In this document: positions 1 through 45,776 of the stretch, one piece after another
Position numbering within the stretch: the stretch's first letter is position 1
Layout: every line of letters begins with the position of its first letter
Source of the DNA: Mesorhizobium sp. M1D.F.Ca.ET.043.01.1.1
GTDB taxonomy: Bacteria > Pseudomonadota > Alphaproteobacteria > Rhizobiales > Rhizobiaceae
DNA: 64,000 bases
Assembly (NCBI RefSeq): GCF_003952385.1
Contig: NZ_CP034444.1
Span: 6,833,001 to 6,897,000, forward strand
Direction: 5' to 3'
Translations under genes and position numbers: made by a program
The notes under the pieces: model-generated
Databases searched by the model: none
What the model was told of the DNA's origin: nothing
The model's input: only the letters and a program-made list of their open reading frames with translations

Positions 1-455
1 GCCTCGATGCCGAAGAAGGCCTGGTCGCCGAGCTCTCCGCTGATCCAGCGCAGCCGCGTGCACAGGAGTTCGATCATGGCGCGCGCCAGCGGTGGATTTT
101 TTTCAATTCGATCAAAGAGTTGCGTCCGGCTGAGCGAAACCAGCTCGCATGCGGTGAGGCAGATGGCGGTCGCCGTGCGCGGGCGTCCGTCCAAGGCGCC
201 GATCTCGCCGACGAGGCTGCGCGACAGCTCGATGTTGGCCACCAGCTTCTGTCCGCCCGGTGAATAGAGCGAAATTTCGACCGTGCCGCTCATCACGCCG
301 TAGATGCGGTCGGACGTGTCCTCCTGGACGAACAGGTGCTGACCGGCGGCATAGCGTTCGACCTTGCAGCCGCTGAATAGCAGATCGAACTGACGCGGAT
401 CGATCCGCGCCAGACGCGGCAGGCCGCTCCTGTCGTCTGCGCCGGCTGTGGACAT
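1..455 (-). CDS. Crp/Fnr-like regulator with cNMP-binding domain (partial, C-terminus outside window)
   Basis: The 151 visible residues form a cyclic-nucleotide-binding beta-roll: a FSGCKVERYAAGQHLFVQED strand-turn, then GVMSGTVEISLYSPGG and GEIGALDGRPRTAT, the usual phosphate-binding-cassette region with a Gly-Glu and an Arg. The family senses cAMP, cGMP or another small ligand and normally carries a C-terminal helix-turn-helix, which would lie beyond position 1. The ATG at 455 is chosen because AGAGGCGG lies about ten bases upstream. The gene is divergent from the protease operon at 1057, so it may control that operon, which is inference. Whether the C-terminus is a DNA-binding or another effector domain cannot be seen. 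Confidence 0.8.
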   Translation of the reverse strand, partial: MSTAGADDRSGLPRLARIDPRQFDLLFSGCKVERYAAGQHLFVQEDTSDRIYGVMSGTVEISLYSPGGQKLVANIELSRSLVGEIGALDGRPRTATAICLTACELVSLSRTQLFDRIEKNPPLARAMIELLCTRLRWISGELGDQAFFGIE

Positions 456-1056
456 GGTGCGATTCCGCCTCTCGTTGAGCGGAAATTGTATGACAAGTGC
501 GTGCTCGATCAAGGCCTGGTCTCCTTTCGTGGCGATTACGGCAACACACGACGGCCTTGGAGATCGAGCGCCAGACGTGCGCTGCCGGCATGGAATTTAG
601 CCGGCAACTTCCCTTGCAACGGGAATCGGAGCGCGCTGGCGGACGCGAACCGATCTGCGAAACGCCGTCCGCGCGCGTGGCGGGAGGTGACCGACGCGCG
701 CGAACAGCAAATCTGAAAATGGCTAGGTGATCGAAATTCCCTGCCGAGGACCGACCCATTTCCAGGTCCGGAAGCCATACGAGCCCGTGCATTTGAAGCA
801 GAAGCCAGTGCCACCCGGTGCGATATCTGTGCGTGAAGTGCGCCCGGCGTATGTGAAGGCGATCACAGAAGCGCTTGTCGGCCGGCGCGATTGTCATTTG
901 GCGAATGTATGTTTCAGGCAACAAGAAGATGATGCCGAAACACAACCGACATGATTGCCTAGTTGGCAAATAGATCGATCGAATCATGGTTTGAAAACTT
1001 GGCTTGACTGGAATTGACAGCCGACGCCATGGTTCCATTTGCGGGGAGGGGGTGCG
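456..1056. other. 601-bp divergent intergenic region
   Basis: This long gap separates the cNMP-binding regulator from the double-protease operon. No convincing gene is seen. A 75-codon GTG-initiated frame at 727-954 reads like protein in places but has no ribosome-binding site. Control elements for both divergent genes should lie here, but I could not identify a clear -35/-10 pair. Confidence 0.5.
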
Positions 1057-4000
1057 ATGGCGGCAAAGGGGCTCCTGGTCAAGGTTCGCGGCGATGGCGC
1101 CGGGCTTTCGGCGCAAGGCCGGTCGCTGGGCATCGGGGGCATCCAGGCCGAACCGATCCTGACTCTGCCGCCTGACTACGGAGCAAACCTCGGCGCTGCG
1201 GAGGGGCGTGGAGCGACCTGGCTACGTGTTTCCACCACGGCGACAAGCTCGGACAATCCCTGGGACGATGCTCATAAATTCGTGTCCCGCGGCGGAGGTC
1301 TCGCAGCGGCTGGCGCTGAAGTGCTGGCGGTTGAGCCCGATATCGATCAGCCATGGCCCTACAAGAACGGCAGCGGCGACCGTGGCATGGCGGCGAGCGC
1401 CAGCCCTGCCTGCACCTTCGACGATCAGGACTCTCGCGGCGGCCAGGCGGTTGTCGGGGACGGCGTCGCCTGGAACGCCGGGCCGAATTTCAGCCAATTC
1501 GCGGCCGCCCGCGCCAGAGTAGGCGCCAAGCAGACCAACATCACCATCGCTCATCTCGATACCGGCTTCGATCCTGGCCACTGCACCTTGCCGGTCGGAC
1601 TTCTCGCGACCAAGCAGCGTAATTTCGTCGACGACGGCACCGGGCCGAACAATGCGACCGATCATGCGCCCGCGGGTACCCTCACCAGCAATCGCGGCCA
1701 CGGCACCGGCACGCTCAGCCTGCTTGCCGGCAACAAGCTCGACGGCACGTCGCCGAATTGGCCGGGCTTCACCGATTTCGTCGGCGGATCTCCGCTGGCA
1801 AAGATCCTGCCGGTGCGCATCGCCAACTGGGTGGTGCGCCTGACCACTGGTACCATGGTGCAAGGCATCGACTATGCGCGCCAACAGGGTGCACAGGTGC
1901 TGTCGATGAGCATGGGCGGCCTCACCTCGCAAGCGCTGGTGGATGCCGTCAACCTCGCTTATGACCAAGGCCTGGTCATGGTGACCGCAGCCGGCAACAA
2001 CGTTACCGTCACGCCGCGCAGCATCGTCTATCCCGCTCGGTATAACCGCGTGCTGGCCGCATGCGGCGTGATGGGCGACGGCCGCGCCTATTCCGGCCTC
2101 GACCTCGGCACCATGCAGGGCAATTACGGGCCACCGTCGAAGATGAAAACGGCGCTCGGCGCCTACACGCCCAACGTGCCCTGGGCGGAGATCCACTGCG
2201 CCAAGGTTGTCGACATGGATGGCAACGGCACGTCGGCTGCAACGCCGCAAATCGCGGCAGCCGCTGCGCTTTGGCTGGCCGAGCACTGGGACGTCGTGAA
2301 GACGTATTCGCAGCCCTGGATGCGCATCGAAGCCGTGCGCTTCGCACTGTTTTCAGCGGCGCTGAAGTCGACCGCGGCGATGGGCAAGGCCGAGACGGCC
2401 GAAAAGATCGGCCAGGGCGTGCTAAGGGCGGATGCGGCGCTCGCCGTCATGCCGCGACCGGAGAACAAGCTCACGAAATTGCCGCCGGCAAAATATTCGT
2501 GGGACTGGCTCGATTTCATCACAGGAAGCAATTCGCTGGCGCCGGTGGCGCCCCAGCAACGCAAGATGCTGGCGCTCGAACTGACCCAGATGGCGCAGCT
2601 CTATCCATCGGTCGACCTGGCGATCGCCGACCCGGACGCAGATCCGAAGGCGATCTCGGCTGCAGCGCGCAATCGCTATCTGGAAGCCGCACTGGACGAG
2701 GGCAATCCGTCGAAGCCGCTCAGATCCTTTCTCGAGGGCGTCCTGGCGAGGCTTGGTGCCAAAGCTGCAGCCGCGGCCACGCCGCCAAAGGCGACGGCGG
2801 TGCCCATCAAGCGCAAGCCGCCGCATCCGCTGCCGCCGCCAAACCGGCAGTTGCGCATCTACGCGCTGGATCCCTCCATCGCCAAGCAGCTCGATTCGGT
2901 ATCCGTGTTTCAGGCGACCATTTCGGTGCCTTGGGACGATGATCCCTCAAGCGGTCGTGCGTTGCTGCCCGGCCCGATAGGCGAGTATCTGGAAGTCGTC
3001 GACATCGATCCTGCGTCCAACCGGGTCTATGACCCGGTCGATCTCAATGACAAGACCTTGCTCGCCCAGGACGGATTGCCACCTTCGGAAGGCAATCCGA
3101 AATTCCACCAACAGATGGTCTACGCCGTCGCGATGACCACCATTGGCCATTTCGAGCGCGCCTTGGGGCGTCGCGCGCTTTGGGCCCCGCACTATGCCGG
3201 CGGCGACGGCCGCAGTCGCGGGATGGAGGTGAAGGCGCTCGAGGTGCCACGGCTGCGCATCTATCCTCATGCGCTGCGCGCCGGCAACGCCTACTACAGT
3301 CCAGACAAGAAGGCTTTGCTGTTCGGCTATTTCCCGGCCGAGAGCAAGGACGGCGATGTCACCACACCGGGCACGACCGTCTTCTCATGCCTGTCGAGCG
3401 ACATCATCGCCCATGAGATGTCGCATGCGCTGCTCGACGGGCTGCACCGGCATTTCGAGGAAGCCTCCAACCCGGACGTGCCGGCGTTTCATGAGGCCTT
3501 CGCCGACATCGTGGCCCTGTTTCAGCACTTCACCCTCAGGGAACTGGTCAGTTTCGGGATCGCCAGAGGAGGGGGCAAGATTTCAGCCGAGACGCTGCTG
3601 TCCGGCATCGCGGCGCAGTTCGGTGAAGGCAGCGGCCGCGCTGGCCCGCTGCGCGATTACGTCAAAGACCCCTTCGACTATGCCAAGACCTTCGAGCCGC
3701 ACGATCGGGGCTCGATCCTCGTCTTTGCCGTCTATCAGGCGTTTCTGGCGATCGTCGACCGCCGCACGAGCGACCTGATAAAGCTGGCTACCGGCGGAAC
3801 AGGCGTGCTGCCGGCGAGCAGCCTGCATCCCAGCCTGGTCGAACGCCTCACGGACGAGGTTGCCAAGATCGCCGAGCAGATGCTGGGAATGTGTATTCGC
3901 GCTCTCGACTATTGCCCAGCGGTCGACATCACCTTCGGCGAATATCTGCGGGCCCTGATCACGGCCGATATCGACGCCTTTCCCGACGATCCGCTCCACT

Positions 4001-4716
4001 ATCGCCTGGCGTTCATGGAATCCTTCCGCAAGCGCAAGCTTCTGCCGCGCGATGTGCGCACGGTGTCGGAAGAGACGCTTGCCTGGAACGCGCCGGAGGA
4101 AGCCAAGCCGAGCTGGCTGCGCGCCGCCATATCCAAGATAGACCTTGGCTGGAACCAGAAACTCAAGCGCTCGGATATCTTTACCCTCAACGAAAAGAAC
4201 CGCCGCGCGCTGTGGCGGGATATGCACCGCGCCTTTGCGGCAAATCCCGACGATTACAAACAGTTCGGGCTGCTGCCCGATCTGCCACGCTACAACAAGA
4301 ACGGCGGCGTGCAGCACAGGGTGGCCAAGGGCGAGACGACTTTCGACATCCCCAGCGTGCGGCCGACCCGCCGGATCGAGCAGGACGGCTCGTTCCGCAC
4401 CGAGATCATCGCTGTCATACAGCAGCGTGTTCCGATTGGTCTTGACGGGACGCCGAAGCTGGATGGCGTGAAGCCTGGCGAAGACTTTGTCTGGTTCCGC
4501 GGCGGCGCGACGATCATCATCGATCCCCGCCAGGGTCAGGAAGAGATCCGTTATTCGATCATCAAGAACAGCGGCAGCCGAGAAAGGCAAAAGCGCCAAG
4601 CCGAAACAGCGACCGCGAACTACTTGTCGCCGCTGCGGGCGCTCTATTTCGGCAAGGGCGTTTCAGAGCCTTTCGCCATGCTGCATGCCAGCGAGGGGGA
4701 CGACGACCATGCCTAG
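1057..4716 (+). CDS. Double protease: subtilisin-like (S8) domain fused to thermolysin-like (HExxH) domain
   Basis: This 1219-residue protein seems to carry two proteases. Residues ~1-110 are an uncharacterised N-terminal domain. Residues ~150-440 are a subtilase with a visible triad: Asp168 in AHLDTGFD, His215 in NRGHGTGT and Ser393 in GNGTSAATP. A Pro/Ala-rich linker lies near 569-598. Residues ~600-1000 form a gluzincin-type metalloprotease with H786-E-M-S-H790 and the third zinc ligand Glu813 in FHEAFAD. The C-terminal ~200 residues are unrecognised. No signal peptide or membrane segment is seen, so a cytoplasmic location is inferred. ATG 1057 is preferred over TTG 1039 because GGGGAGGGGG lies just upstream. 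The gene overlaps the next by 8 bases, so the two are translationally coupled. Residue numbers come from the ATG at 1057. Confidence 0.85.
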   Translation: MAAKGLLVKVRGDGAGLSAQGRSLGIGGIQAEPILTLPPDYGANLGAAEGRGATWLRVSTTATSSDNPWDDAHKFVSRGGGLAAAGAEVLAVEPDIDQPWPYKNGSGDRGMAASASPACTFDDQDSRGGQAVVGDGVAWNAGPNFSQFAAARARVGAKQTNITIAHLDTGFDPGHCTLPVGLLATKQRNFVDDGTGPNNATDHAPAGTLTSNRGHGTGTLSLLAGNKLDGTSPNWPGFTDFVGGSPLAKILPVRIANWVVRLTTGTMVQGIDYARQQGAQVLSMSMGGLTSQALVDAVNLAYDQGLVMVTAAGNNVTVTPRSIVYPARYNRVLAACGVMGDGRAYSGLDLGTMQGNYGPPSKMKTALGAYTPNVPWAEIHCAKVVDMDGNGTSAATPQIAAAAALWLAEHWDVVKTYSQPWMRIEAVRFALFSAALKSTAAMGKAETAEKIGQGVLRADAALAVMPRPENKLTKLPPAKYSWDWLDFITGSNSLAPVAPQQRKMLALELTQMAQLYPSVDLAIADPDADPKAISAAARNRYLEAALDEGNPSKPLRSFLEGVLARLGAKAAAAATPPKATAVPIKRKPPHPLPPPNRQLRIYALDPSIAKQLDSVSVFQATISVPWDDDPSSGRALLPGPIGEYLEVVDIDPASNRVYDPVDLNDKTLLAQDGLPPSEGNPKFHQQMVYAVAMTTIGHFERALGRRALWAPHYAGGDGRSRGMEVKALEVPRLRIYPHALRAGNAYYSPDKKALLFGYFPAESKDGDVTTPGTTVFSCLSSDIIAHEMSHALLDGLHRHFEEASNPDVPAFHEAFADIVALFQHFTLRELVSFGIARGGGKISAETLLSGIAAQFGEGSGRAGPLRDYVKDPFDYAKTFEPHDRGSILVFAVYQAFLAIVDRRTSDLIKLATGGTGVLPASSLHPSLVERLTDEVAKIAEQMLGMCIRALDYCPAVDITFGEYLRALITADIDAFPDDPLHYRLAFMESFRKRKLLPRDVRTVSEETLAWNAPEEAKPSWLRAAISKIDLGWNQKLKRSDIFTLNEKNRRALWRDMHRAFAANPDDYKQFGLLPDLPRYNKNGGVQHRVAKGETTFDIPSVRPTRRIEQDGSFRTEIIAVIQQRVPIGLDGTPKLDGVKPGEDFVWFRGGATIIIDPRQGQEEIRYSIIKNSGSRERQKRQAETATANYLSPLRALYFGKGVSEPFAMLHASEGDDDHA

Positions 4717-6226
4717 GAAGCCGGCGCGTCGCGCAACGTCGAGGACAGCGGCCAACTCCGCGGCGGGTCGCGCCATGACTGTGCGGCATTATTGCCAGGG
4801 CATCGGCGATTGCCATCTGCTGACCGTGCCAAAGCCGGACGGTTCACTTTTCCGCATCCTCATCGATTGCGGTATCCATGTGTCCATCAAGGGCGGCTCG
4901 AAGCTGATCGCTGACATTGTCGCCGATATCAGAACCGAGACGAAGGGCGAGATCGACGTTCTCGTCGTCACCCACGAGCATTGGGACCACGTATCGGGCT
5001 TCCTGACCTCCAACGATCTGTTCAAGGGCTTCAGGATCAAGGAAGTCTGGATGGCATGGACCGAGAACGGCGCCGATCCGGAAGCCGCCGAGATCGACAA
5101 GTTCAAGGCCAGCGCGCTGACCGCATTGCAGAGCGCAAGCCGGAAGCTGGACGCAGAGCGCGCGCTCACTCCCCATGTGGCAACCGTTCGTTACGGTCTG
5201 CAGTCCGTCCTCAGTTTCCAGTTCGGCGCCGCCGGCGAAAGAGTGCGCGCCGCGCGCGATGCGGCGGCCAAGCTTTCAACCAGGCAGCCCTGCTACTTCG
5301 AACCGGGCGGACCGCTGCCCCAGGTTCCCGATTTGCCCAATCTCAAAATCTACGTGCTCGGTCCGCCGCGCGACAAGGCGGCGCTTCGGCTCGAGGAAAA
5401 GGCCGGCGAAATGTATCCGCTCTCCTCAGGAGGGCCAAGCGCGCGCGCGCTCGCCGCCGGGCTTGCGGTGAACGAGAGCCCTGATGGAACCTATGTGGAC
5501 GAGCTCAGCCCATTCGAGCGCAATATCGGCACCGAGCTTTCGGCGGCGTTGAACGGCTACAAGGGAGACGACGGGGCGTTCGACATCGGCGCCTTTGTCC
5601 GCGATCATTACGCCGGGCCTGTTGCCAACGCCACGCCCACGGAGGGCCTCGACCAGTCCTGGCGCCGCATCGACGCCGACTGGATGGGAATTGCTGCCGA
5701 CCTCGCGCTGCAGCTCGATCGTGGCGTCAACAACACCAGCCTGGTGCTCGCCTTTGAATTCATTGACACCGGCCACGTCATCCTGTTCCCCGGCGACGCC
5801 CAGATCGGCAATTGGCTGAGCTGGAAGGATCTGAAATTCCAGGTGGGTGAAAAGACCGTCACGGCAGCGGACTTGATGGCGCGCACGGTGTACCTGAAGG
5901 TTGCCCATCACGGCAGCCAGAACGCCACACCGCAAAAACAGGGCTTGGAGCTGATGACCAGCACCGACCTTTCGGCCTTCATTCCCACCAGCAGGATCGA
6001 CGCTCAAAACGTTCATTGGGGCGCCATGCCTTACGATCCGATCCTGAGCGCGCTCATGGCGAAGACCAGCGGTCGCGTCATCCGCGCTGACGATCCCTGG
6101 CTGGCGAAAGCGAATGGGAAGCCAGCCTTCGCTTCGCCATCGGGCTCGATCCTGGCGGTGCGCAGCGCGCCGCGCGATCCTGCCCGGGGGCCGGGTGGGC
6201 TGTGGGTCGAGGTGGATCTGGTTTAG
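4709..6226 (+). CDS. ComEC/Rec2-type metallo-beta-lactamase-fold hydrolase
   Basis: The 505-residue protein has the metal-binding motif VVTHEHWDHVSGF (H89, H91, D93, H94). The later ligands are in FPGDAQIGNW and VAHHGSQN. This matches the ComEC/Rec2-like branch of the MBL fold, which includes nucleases and other phosphoesterases, but the membrane channel of true ComEC is absent. The ATG at 4709 sits inside the last codons of the double-protease gene, with GAGGGGGA eight bases upstream, so the two are co-expressed. The first ~22 residues are basic and low in complexity. Function is unknown. The pairing suggests the hydrolase and the protease act in one pathway (inference). Confidence 0.85.
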   Translation: MPRKPARRATSRTAANSAAGRAMTVRHYCQGIGDCHLLTVPKPDGSLFRILIDCGIHVSIKGGSKLIADIVADIRTETKGEIDVLVVTHEHWDHVSGFLTSNDLFKGFRIKEVWMAWTENGADPEAAEIDKFKASALTALQSASRKLDAERALTPHVATVRYGLQSVLSFQFGAAGERVRAARDAAAKLSTRQPCYFEPGGPLPQVPDLPNLKIYVLGPPRDKAALRLEEKAGEMYPLSSGGPSARALAAGLAVNESPDGTYVDELSPFERNIGTELSAALNGYKGDDGAFDIGAFVRDHYAGPVANATPTEGLDQSWRRIDADWMGIAADLALQLDRGVNNTSLVLAFEFIDTGHVILFPGDAQIGNWLSWKDLKFQVGEKTVTAADLMARTVYLKVAHHGSQNATPQKQGLELMTSTDLSAFIPTSRIDAQNVHWGAMPYDPILSALMAKTSGRVIRADDPWLAKANGKPAFASPSGSILAVRSAPRDPARGPGGLWVEVDLV

Positions 6227-6623: not shown

Positions 6624-6698
6624 TGGTGGGCGATGCAGGGATTGAACCTGCGACCCCACCCGTGTGAAGGGTGTGCTCTCCCGCTGAGCTAATCGCCC
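6624..6698 (-). tRNA. tRNA-Val (anticodon CAC)
   Basis: The minus strand folds as a full cloverleaf of 75 nt: acceptor GGGCGAT/ATCGCCC, D stem GCTC/GAGC, anticodon stem CACCC/GGGTG with loop TTCACAC (anticodon CAC at 6664-6666), and T arm GCAGG-TTCAATC-CCTGC. The 3' CCA is encoded. It reads GUG valine codons. Confidence 0.95.
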
Positions 6699-44258: not shown

Positions 44259-45776
44259 ATGCGCCGCATGCAGGGATCGCGCTTTGCCTTTGGTCCGTAC
44301 GTGCTTGATTCGGCTGCGGGAACGCTGCTTCGAAACGATGTCCCCGTCGCTGCTGGCTATCGCGGGCTGAAGCTGCTTGCGGCGCTCGTCGAACGTCCTG
44401 GCGAAATCCTGGCCAAGGCCGAGCTGATGGACGCGGCATGGCCGGGCACGGCCGTCGAGGAAGGCAACCTCACCGTTCAGATCGCGCAGCTCAGGAAGCT
44501 GCTAGGATCGGCTGGCGACGGCAGTGAATGGATCGCCACGGTGCCACGCGTCGGCTACCGCTTCACAGGCGCCATCGAACAGCTCGGCGACGCGAAGCGA
44601 AAACCCTTGCCGCTGCCCGGCAAGCCGTCGATAGCCGTGCTGCCCTTCGTCAATTTCAGCAATGATCCCGAGCAGGACTCCTTCGCGGACGGGTTGACCG
44701 AGGACCTGATTACCGACCTATCCAGGAATGACGGCCTGTTCGTCATCGCGCGCAACTCGGTCTTCGCCTACAAGGGCAAGGCGATGGACGTGCGCGCGAT
44801 CGCCGAGGATCTCGGCGTGCGCTACCTGCTCGAAGGGAGCGCAAGGCGCGCCGCCGGACGCGTGCGCATCAACGCGCAGCTGGTCGATGCGATGAGCGGC
44901 GAGCATCTTTGGGCGGAACGCTTCGATCGCAGCCTGGAAGATATCTTTGCCGTCCAGGACGAGGTGACCGCCAAGATCGTCGAGGCGCTGCTCGGCAGGC
45001 TGCGCGCATCGCCGCCACGCAACCGGCCCAAGAATCTAGAGGCCTACGACCTGTGCGTGCGGGCGCGCAAGCTGATCGACGATTCGCCGCAGACGGCGCG
45101 CGAAGCGCATCTGATGCTGACGCGCGCGGTCTCGCTCGATCCGGAATATGCCGAGGCCTATCGGTGGCTTGCCATGAACCACTGGATGGGATGGGTGCAT
45201 TGGGGCGAACCGATCGAGCCCAACCGCGGCGTTGCCCTGGAATTGGCGCGCAAGGCCGTGGCGATCGATCCCAACGACGCCGGCTGCCGCTGGGTGCTGG
45301 CCAACCTGCTTGCCTATGAACGCCGGTTCGACGAGGCCGACGTTGAATTCGCCAAGGCGTTCGAGCTCGACCCGAACGAGGCCGACGCCTGGGCGACGTT
45401 GTCTGATATCTCGGTCCTGGCCGGGCATGTCGAGGAAGGCCTCGAGCAGGTTCGCAAGGCGTTCCGGCTGAACCCGTTTCCACCGAGCTGGTATTACCTG
45501 ACGCTCGGCGCGGCGCAATATGCGGCAGGCGCCTATGAGGCCGCCGTCGAGACGCTGCGCCGGGACGAGACCTATCGGACTAGCTCACGCCGCTTCCTGG
45601 CGGCCAGCCTTGCCCAACTCGGCCGGCTCGACGAGGCGCACGCCGAGGTCGAGATGTTCCTCATCGCCAACCCGCATTTCACGACCCGCCACTGGGTCTG
45701 GACCGAGCCGTTCCGCGACGACGCGACGCTCGTGCATTTTGTCGACGGCTTTCGCAAGGCCGGTCTTCCGGAGTAG
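44259..45776 (+). CDS. Winged-helix (CadC-type) regulator with TolB-like and TPR domains
   Basis: The 505-residue protein has three parts. The first is an N-terminal OmpR/CadC winged helix (FGPYVLDSAAGTLLRNDVPV, AELMDAAWPGTAVEEGNLTV, ATVPRVGYRFTG). The second is a TolB/FlgO-like domain (SIAVLPFVNFSNDPEQD, DVRAIAEDLGVRYLLEGSAR). The third is a C-terminal TPR array. No membrane segment separates them, unlike CadC. Such regulators bind DNA and receive a signal through the TPR part. ATG 44259 is two codons before a second ATG. A repeat fragment touches the start, so the native promoter is unclear. Confidence 0.85.
   Translation: MRRMQGSRFAFGPYVLDSAAGTLLRNDVPVAAGYRGLKLLAALVERPGEILAKAELMDAAWPGTAVEEGNLTVQIAQLRKLLGSAGDGSEWIATVPRVGYRFTGAIEQLGDAKRKPLPLPGKPSIAVLPFVNFSNDPEQDSFADGLTEDLITDLSRNDGLFVIARNSVFAYKGKAMDVRAIAEDLGVRYLLEGSARRAAGRVRINAQLVDAMSGEHLWAERFDRSLEDIFAVQDEVTAKIVEALLGRLRASPPRNRPKNLEAYDLCVRARKLIDDSPQTAREAHLMLTRAVSLDPEYAEAYRWLAMNHWMGWVHWGEPIEPNRGVALELARKAVAIDPNDAGCRWVLANLLAYERRFDEADVEFAKAFELDPNEADAWATLSDISVLAGHVEEGLEQVRKAFRLNPFPPSWYYLTLGAAQYAAGAYEAAVETLRRDETYRTSSRRFLAASLAQLGRLDEAHAEVEMFLIANPHFTTRHWVWTEPFRDDATLVHFVDGFRKAGLPE

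Follow-up and report, generated by a model that had tools for sequence, protein, structure and literature searches.

A conserved metalloprotease–MBL gene pair, fused to a subtilase in Mesorhizobium, as a candidate protease-gated pro-nuclease module

We analysed a two-gene operon in a 64,000-nucleotide stretch of the genome of Mesorhizobium sp. M1D.F.Ca.ET.043.01.1.1 (contig NZ_CP034444.1, positions 6,833,001 to 6,897,000; hereafter the window). The first gene encodes a 1219-residue chain in which an S8 subtilase is fused to a thermolysin-like metalloprotease, and the second, overlapping it by 8 bases, encodes a ComEC-type protein of the metallo-beta-lactamase (MBL) fold; this layout, read from the sequence by a first-pass annotation, is confirmed here. 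Comparison with relatives indicates that the conserved unit is the metalloprotease together with the MBL protein, the S8 half being one of several attachments. We put the chances at about even that the operon is a protease-gated pro-nuclease module.

Results

The metalloprotease and the MBL protein form the conserved unit

Genome contigs were scanned with the metalloprotease half, which gave 328 matching stretches, of which the best 80 were kept. An MBL gene adjoins the metalloprotease gene in 79 of these 80 loci and follows it directly in 78 under a strict distance rule; in L071 a longer N-terminus precedes the MBL domain. No MBL gene was detected in the 10 kb downstream of a fusion from Desulfatitalea (L117:6028-9666). 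Searching by the MBL protein matched 8 of 199 genomes of the order, the window genome included, and a metalloprotease gene adjoins in all eight. Among plasmids, 115 records match the protease, 40 of them listed, and the 35 records that match the MBL protein all fall within those 40; of the 37 listed matches to the metalloprotease half, 35 also match the MBL protein. The two proteins diverge in step as well: their distances correlate with an r of 0.925 across 66 loci, compared with 0.189 in the best of 999 shuffles (19 near-identical rows, 10 partial rows and L117 were left out). The first-pass annotation had taken the whole S8–metalloprotease chain with the MBL protein as the unit; its pairing of metalloprotease and MBL protein holds, whereas S8 is optional, sharing an open reading frame (ORF) with the metalloprotease in 61 of the 80 loci (one truncated).

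Relatives are found in Proteobacteria, Acidobacteriota, Planctomycetota and Bacteroidota, with one in Deinococcota. Phages hold few copies of the module within the collections searched: the viral collection gave one partial relative, and the phage records one good metalloprotease match, in an unannotated 9.5-kb record, one weak match, and S8-only matches in 12 Bacillus phage records.

Catalytic sites are intact in a chain that appears cytoplasmic

Conservation was scored over the window, 15 plasmid loci and the 80 genome loci. Both proteolytic sites, described as intact in the first annotation, are lost in no row that covers them. The S8 triad D168, H215 and S393 and the oxyanion residue N314 are kept in 67 of 68 rows, the odd one being a truncated ORF, and the metalloprotease HExxH, E813, D817 and H882 in all 96. 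In the MBL protein, H89/H91/D93/H94 are invariant in the rows covering them (91 of 95), as are D363/H400/H401 in all 88 rows that extend to these positions.

Membership of the S8 family follows from a PF00082 match above the cut-off, the triad and the oxyanion Asn. That match (E 1.3e-25) is the sole Pfam match of the 1219-residue protein; its C-terminal half has none at E<1, M4 and M36 models included, and a PDB search with the profile of the metalloprotease half (A3) gave nothing meaningful by sequence (best E 1.9). The fold of this half is that of a gluzincin of the M4/M36 type, with HExxH, a Glu ligand and an Asp four residues further on, all shared with M36 fungalysin and M4 thermolysin. 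It differs from those peptidases in having no Pfam match and, by a crude test, no visible signal peptide, and in its additional C-terminal domain and fusion to S8. The MBL protein has weak Pfam MBL matches.

By the same crude test neither window protein contains a signal-like or membrane-like stretch, in agreement with the cytoplasmic two-protease chain first proposed. The homologues are similar: a strong hydrophobic stretch close to the N-terminus is absent from 94 of the 96 metalloprotease proteins, the exceptions being L097 and L121, where the longest ORF contains one. Taken anywhere in these 96 proteins, the eight top 19-residue means are 1.66 to 1.93.

The second long MBL segment carries an invariant Pro-Phe

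Insert lengths were compared in 84 of 95 MBL rows, 11 partial rows being left out. The spacing from F98 to P219 ranges from 112 to 147 residues and that from P219 to N341 from 91 to 142. The window protein has 242 residues from F98 to N341, against about 72 over this span in ComEC (9ic4), by our own count on an alignment to the caspase-linked MBL protein of L141, which leaves about 170 extra residues where gates should lie. When ComEC 9ic4 and that caspase-linked protein are compared directly, the unaligned middle is 45 residues in the former and 137 in the latter. The host's own ComEC has, judged by eye, a C-terminus without a usable MBL domain.

Within the second segment, Pro268-Phe269 is present in every row and no other position of 228-300 passes 0.73 in conservation; Y301 follows in 83 of 84 rows and then a patch from W318 to W325. 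Conserved residues of the first segment are single only. Pro-Phe is retained irrespective of S8, in 61 of 61 rows with the domain and 23 of 23 without it. Because it is kept equally in both groups, this pattern points to the metalloprotease as the enzyme that would cut the MBL protein, with the Pro-Phe as the candidate site. Thermolysin-type enzymes preferentially cut before Phe or Leu.

The S8 domain is one of several attachments

On a metalloprotease tree of 77 rows (19 near-identical rows dropped; rooted on long branches), the S8 label requires 4 changes, with 48 S8 rows and 27 others; L120, where a second, partial copy is present, was not counted as S8-bearing. The S8 domain is an optional and probably later attachment. 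The tree also intermixes bacterial classes, rows from Pseudomonas and Lysobacter standing between those of alphaproteobacteria, a pattern consistent with horizontal transfer.

Loci without S8, and sometimes loci with it, have other partners, placed within the operon, close to it or on the chain itself. Patatin is found in 9 loci by clustering (5 Pfam-checked), a Tle1-like lipase in 4 by clustering (one Pfam-checked), PLD in L031 and, by annotation, L038, and an LCAT-like lipase as a separate gene in L042 and fused, with a weak match, in L121. TPR-S is fused in front in L100 and L103, an E1/E2/JAB-type gene lies near four loci by clustering (L122 Pfam-checked), and in Hymenobacter an SMC-type protein matches LmuB at 4e-24. 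On that Hymenobacter plasmid (L033:5592-11339) the LmuB-like SMC protein, the metalloprotease and the MBL protein are encoded consecutively, a Lamassu-like layout.

Two further gene types were seen beside members of the family. A third gene of about 300-350 residues follows the MBL gene in L028:12187-13086, L065:13479-14432, L082:13300-14343 and L085:13301-14254, with no Pfam match in the three copies scanned (L028, L065 and L085). A separate zincin-like HExxH gene of about 515 residues, with weak similarity to the metalloprotease half, lies upstream of the fusion in L086:2431-3978 and L093:2346-3905; for the copy in L086 Pfam gave no match.

The pair belongs to no named system

The closest experimental precedent is the group of 'gated' MBL pro-nucleases of Tuck et al. 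2025 (PMC12799240). According to the text of that paper, Hachiman and AVAST have MBL pro-nucleases in which two inserts lie over the active site and are cleaved by a trypsin-like protease at conserved isoleucine residues. Activation in canu is by a caspase, and the nuclease inserts there have conserved glycines. Additional MBL homologues are stated to occur together with other protease families, for which fig. S2 is cited there. The pairs treated in that text (HamM of Hachiman, Avs1a/b of AVAST, Lamassu and DRT; PMC12799240) set a ComEC-like MBL protein beside a dedicated protease fused to another domain, as in the window. Long MBL inserts and correlated divergence of the pair are likewise common to both, and the window MBL protein resembles theirs in being ComEC-like with intact metal ligands. 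The window protease is a gluzincin with S8, whereas theirs are trypsin-like or caspases; its MBL gene lies downstream of the protease gene rather than upstream; and, unlike those systems, the immediate flanks examined hold no HamB, STAND, LmuB or reverse transcriptase gene.

Named systems were each compared with the pair. The canu genes CanABC share its order, with the protease gene upstream and the MBL gene downstream (PMC12799240, as described in its text), but comprise a caspase and a middle gene, whereas nothing separates protease and MBL in the window; canu was rejected, as neither protein nor any of the three scanned upstream neighbours has a caspase domain and tRNA-Val lies downstream. 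AVAST type 1 was rejected on an Avs1a match of 28 bits against a cut-off of 420. LmuA-MBL of Lamassu weakly matches the window MBL protein, and in one Hymenobacter member an LmuB-like gene stands immediately upstream; this candidate was set aside, as SMC-type domains are absent from the pair and from its three scanned upstream neighbours and an LmuB-like gene was seen only in L033. The 6A-MBL system shares the MBL fold, and four family loci lie near E1/E2/JAB-type genes, but such domains were not found in the window's three upstream neighbours scanned, and the window MBL protein reaches 30.6 bits against the 6A-MBL (NF058524) cut-off of 220. System 3 of Kaur et al. 2020 (NucA, trypsin and S8) combines, as outlined in PMC7159879, multiple peptidases with a nuclease in alphaproteobacteria, as the window does; neither a NucA nor a trypsin domain is present in either protein, and the predicted nuclease here is the MBL protein.

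The pair therefore belongs to no named system, its protease class failing the defining feature of the published gated pairs. The first-pass annotation knew of no described system with exactly this layout, which needs qualifying, as protease–MBL immune pairs are already in print with trypsin-like proteases and caspases (PMC12799240, from its text). Literature searches, some of which returned mostly unrelated results, and which did not cover fig. S2 of PMC12799240, turned up no publication describing this protease class and layout; a term search of the text of that paper found no metalloprotease, subtilisin or metallopeptidase.

Evidence for and against a defence role

The window MBL protein has weak PADLOC and NCBIfam matches to LmuA (1e-13), RTasMBL (8e-8), 6A-MBL (2e-7) and Avs1a (9e-7), and LmuA-MBL (PDLC03854) is the best PADLOC match of this protein and of all eight other family MBL proteins scanned. 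We counted the TPR-S and LmuB-like associations for defence. Plasmid neighbourhoods, considered with no control set, look rich in defence genes and include CBASS, a Hachiman-like DUF1837 gene with a helicase (labelled by eye), SIR2 and a caspase. At L141:5315-13976 a metalloprotease split over two frames, an MBL gene and a patatin gene adjoin, on the opposite strand, a trio of caspase, middle gene and MBL gene that looks canu-like by eye; a profile comparison of the family MBL protein with the MBL protein of this trio and two others gave a probability of 94.6 over 90 columns. On the short end of another contig (L142:6336-8604) a patatin gene immediately precedes an Avs1a-like MBL gene, with no protease gene recognised.

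Two results weigh against a defence role. Neighbours of 20 chromosomal loci were matched to PADLOC at E<=1e-15 (106 of 208 neighbours listed, the nearer ones of 120-1400 residues) and compared with a control set of 110 genes taken from 20 stretches on these contigs; many redundant models recur in both lists, and no clear defence-island enrichment was seen. Near the loci, the 25 families shown of 73 include PtuA/B, JetB, RdrA, E1-E2 and ATPase_I-A; in the control stretches, the 25 shown of 40 include a type IIG restriction-modification enzyme, DrmMI, PD-T4-6, mad3/mad6 and MkoA. A plain defence-island claim for chromosomal loci is accordingly unsupported by this control. In the window genome, no known defence gene is present among the three upstream neighbours scanned. 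The link to conflict systems made in the first annotation gains support from the distant LmuA, RTasMBL, 6A-MBL and Avs1a matches and from the protease–MBL mechanism described in the text of PMC12799240, while the defence function itself is something we infer.

Proposed mechanism

Most likely, by analogy, the module works like the published protease-gated nucleases, and it is probably a defensive pro-nuclease gated by its metalloprotease. The ComEC-type MBL protein would be made as an inactive DNase, two inserted segments covering and blocking its active site. Phage or other invasion would be the trigger on which the cytoplasmic gluzincin metalloprotease, encoded by the preceding gene, would cut at least one insert, the best candidate cut lying before Phe269 in the invariant Pro-Phe. 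The opened nuclease would then degrade DNA, leading to cell death or growth arrest. The fused S8 subtilase would be an additional protease, either an activator of the metalloprotease or a second lytic effector, the latter because relatives carry lipases instead of or beside S8.

The roles could also be reversed: the MBL protein would act as the regulator, for instance by clearing a signal that is a small molecule or a nucleic acid, and killing would fall to the proteases and lipases. We consider this unlikely: in the experimental MBL–protease precedents described in PMC12799240 the protease comes first and the MBL nuclease last, and the reversed order leaves the large variable inserts with their invariant dipeptide unexplained.

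Genomic setting of the pair in Mesorhizobium

Coordinates of the pair and its neighbours within the window are collected in Table 1; the fusion gene and MBL gene may be translationally coupled. The genome is a single contig of 7.13 Mb.

Table 1. Features of the gene pair and flanking genes (window coordinates).
Feature	Position	Strand	Remark
S8 subtilase–gluzincin (M4/M36-like, thermolysin-like) metalloprotease fusion, 1219 residues	1057..4716	+	no signal-like stretch
S8 domain, residues 160-435; triad D168/H215/S393, oxyanion N314	1534..2361	+	PF00082 E 1.3e-25
Gluzincin domain, residues about 597-1007	2845..4077	+	
Zinc motif HEMSH, residues 786-790	3412..3426	+	
Glu813, third zinc ligand; Asp817 four residues further	3493..3495	+	invariant in 96/96 rows
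C-terminal helix and beta-sheet domain of the metalloprotease half, residues about 1008-1219	4078..4713	+	secondary structure from model
8-base overlap of fusion and MBL genes	4709..4716	+	
ComEC-type MBL-fold protein, 505 residues, predicted (pro)nuclease	4709..6226	+	
MBL metal motif HEHWDH, residues 89-94	4973..4990	+	
MBL first long segment, residues about 119-211, candidate gate 1	5063..5341	+	from row lengths and model
MBL second long segment, residues about 223-336, candidate gate 2	5375..5716	+	predicted local distance difference test (pLDDT) <50 at 239-248
Pro268-Phe269, candidate cleavage site	5510..5515	+	invariant in 84/84 rows
Crp-family cyclic-nucleotide regulator (cNMP_binding, HTH_Crp_2), divergent from the pair	1..512	-	extends past window start
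tRNA-Val (cac), downstream of the pair	6624..6698	-	

The genes upstream of the pair suggest another reading, about as unlikely in our view as reversed roles: a proteolytic or cell-envelope function outside defence, regulated by cyclic nucleotides and tied in Mesorhizobium to a P450-DyP protein and the Crp-family regulator. Besides the divergent Crp-family gene, a class III cyclase-TPR gene and then a gene for a 1446-residue P450 and DyP-peroxidase protein lie directly upstream of the window start (L125:3456-9752); by eye, the latter protein has hydrophobic stretches between its P450 and DyP-peroxidase domains. Of 25 window-like loci, 23 have both the cyclase and the P450-DyP gene upstream and the remaining two have too short a flank; tRNA-Val (cac) lies downstream in 18 of the 20 related loci that were scanned. 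The full fusion is present in 24 of 99 genomes of the genus (split across two contigs in one), and P450-DyP adjoins it in all 24 (two match lists compared by reading); 17 further genomes have metalloprotease or S8 matches of other kinds, for a total of 41 of 99. A DyP-like match without the P450 part also lies about 6.7 kb from a distant S8–metalloprotease fusion on a Rhizobium plasmid (L032:17070 onward; CP140817.1 538263-541164), and cell-wall hydrolases are encoded near some loci. However, P450-DyP is found at E<=1e-100 in 53 of the 99 genomes, 29 of them without the full fusion, so the cassette can exist alone, and the Mesorhizobium cassette genes were not found in other fetched loci (phmmer, E<=1e-10, flanks of about 10 kb). 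From these counts (53 genomes with P450-DyP, 24 with the fusion), the pair was either gained beside an older P450-DyP cassette or lost from it. Elsewhere in the window, an ORF at 44259-45776 (+) resembles the cyclase-TPR protein (130 bits).

Export of the lytic enzymes as an interbacterial or secreted toxin cassette is improbable: Tle1-like (PF09994), patatin and PLD partners belong to families also known as type VI effectors, L041 has an HlyD-family gene and L038 conjugation genes, but the window proteins have no signal-like stretch, an MBL partner accompanies nearly every locus, and no type VI operon was seen among annotated plasmid neighbours, where secretion genes were not searched for specifically.

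Implications

Returning to the metalloprotease-gated pro-nuclease, we tentatively suggest, at somewhat less than even likelihood, that thermolysin/fungalysin-type metalloproteases are a third independent protease class that opens gated MBL pro-nucleases, with one large branch fused to a subtilisin as a built-in two-protease zymogen cascade; beside a cyclic-nucleotide regulator and a P450-peroxidase gene, the Mesorhizobium module may couple to an oxidative signal. If this is true, proteolytic gating of MBL nucleases would be a general principle of immunity, compatible with at least three unrelated protease folds, and thermolysin-type enzymes, known as secreted proteases, would have a cytoplasmic branch. 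A widespread unannotated module would thereby gain a testable mechanism with a named candidate cleavage site.

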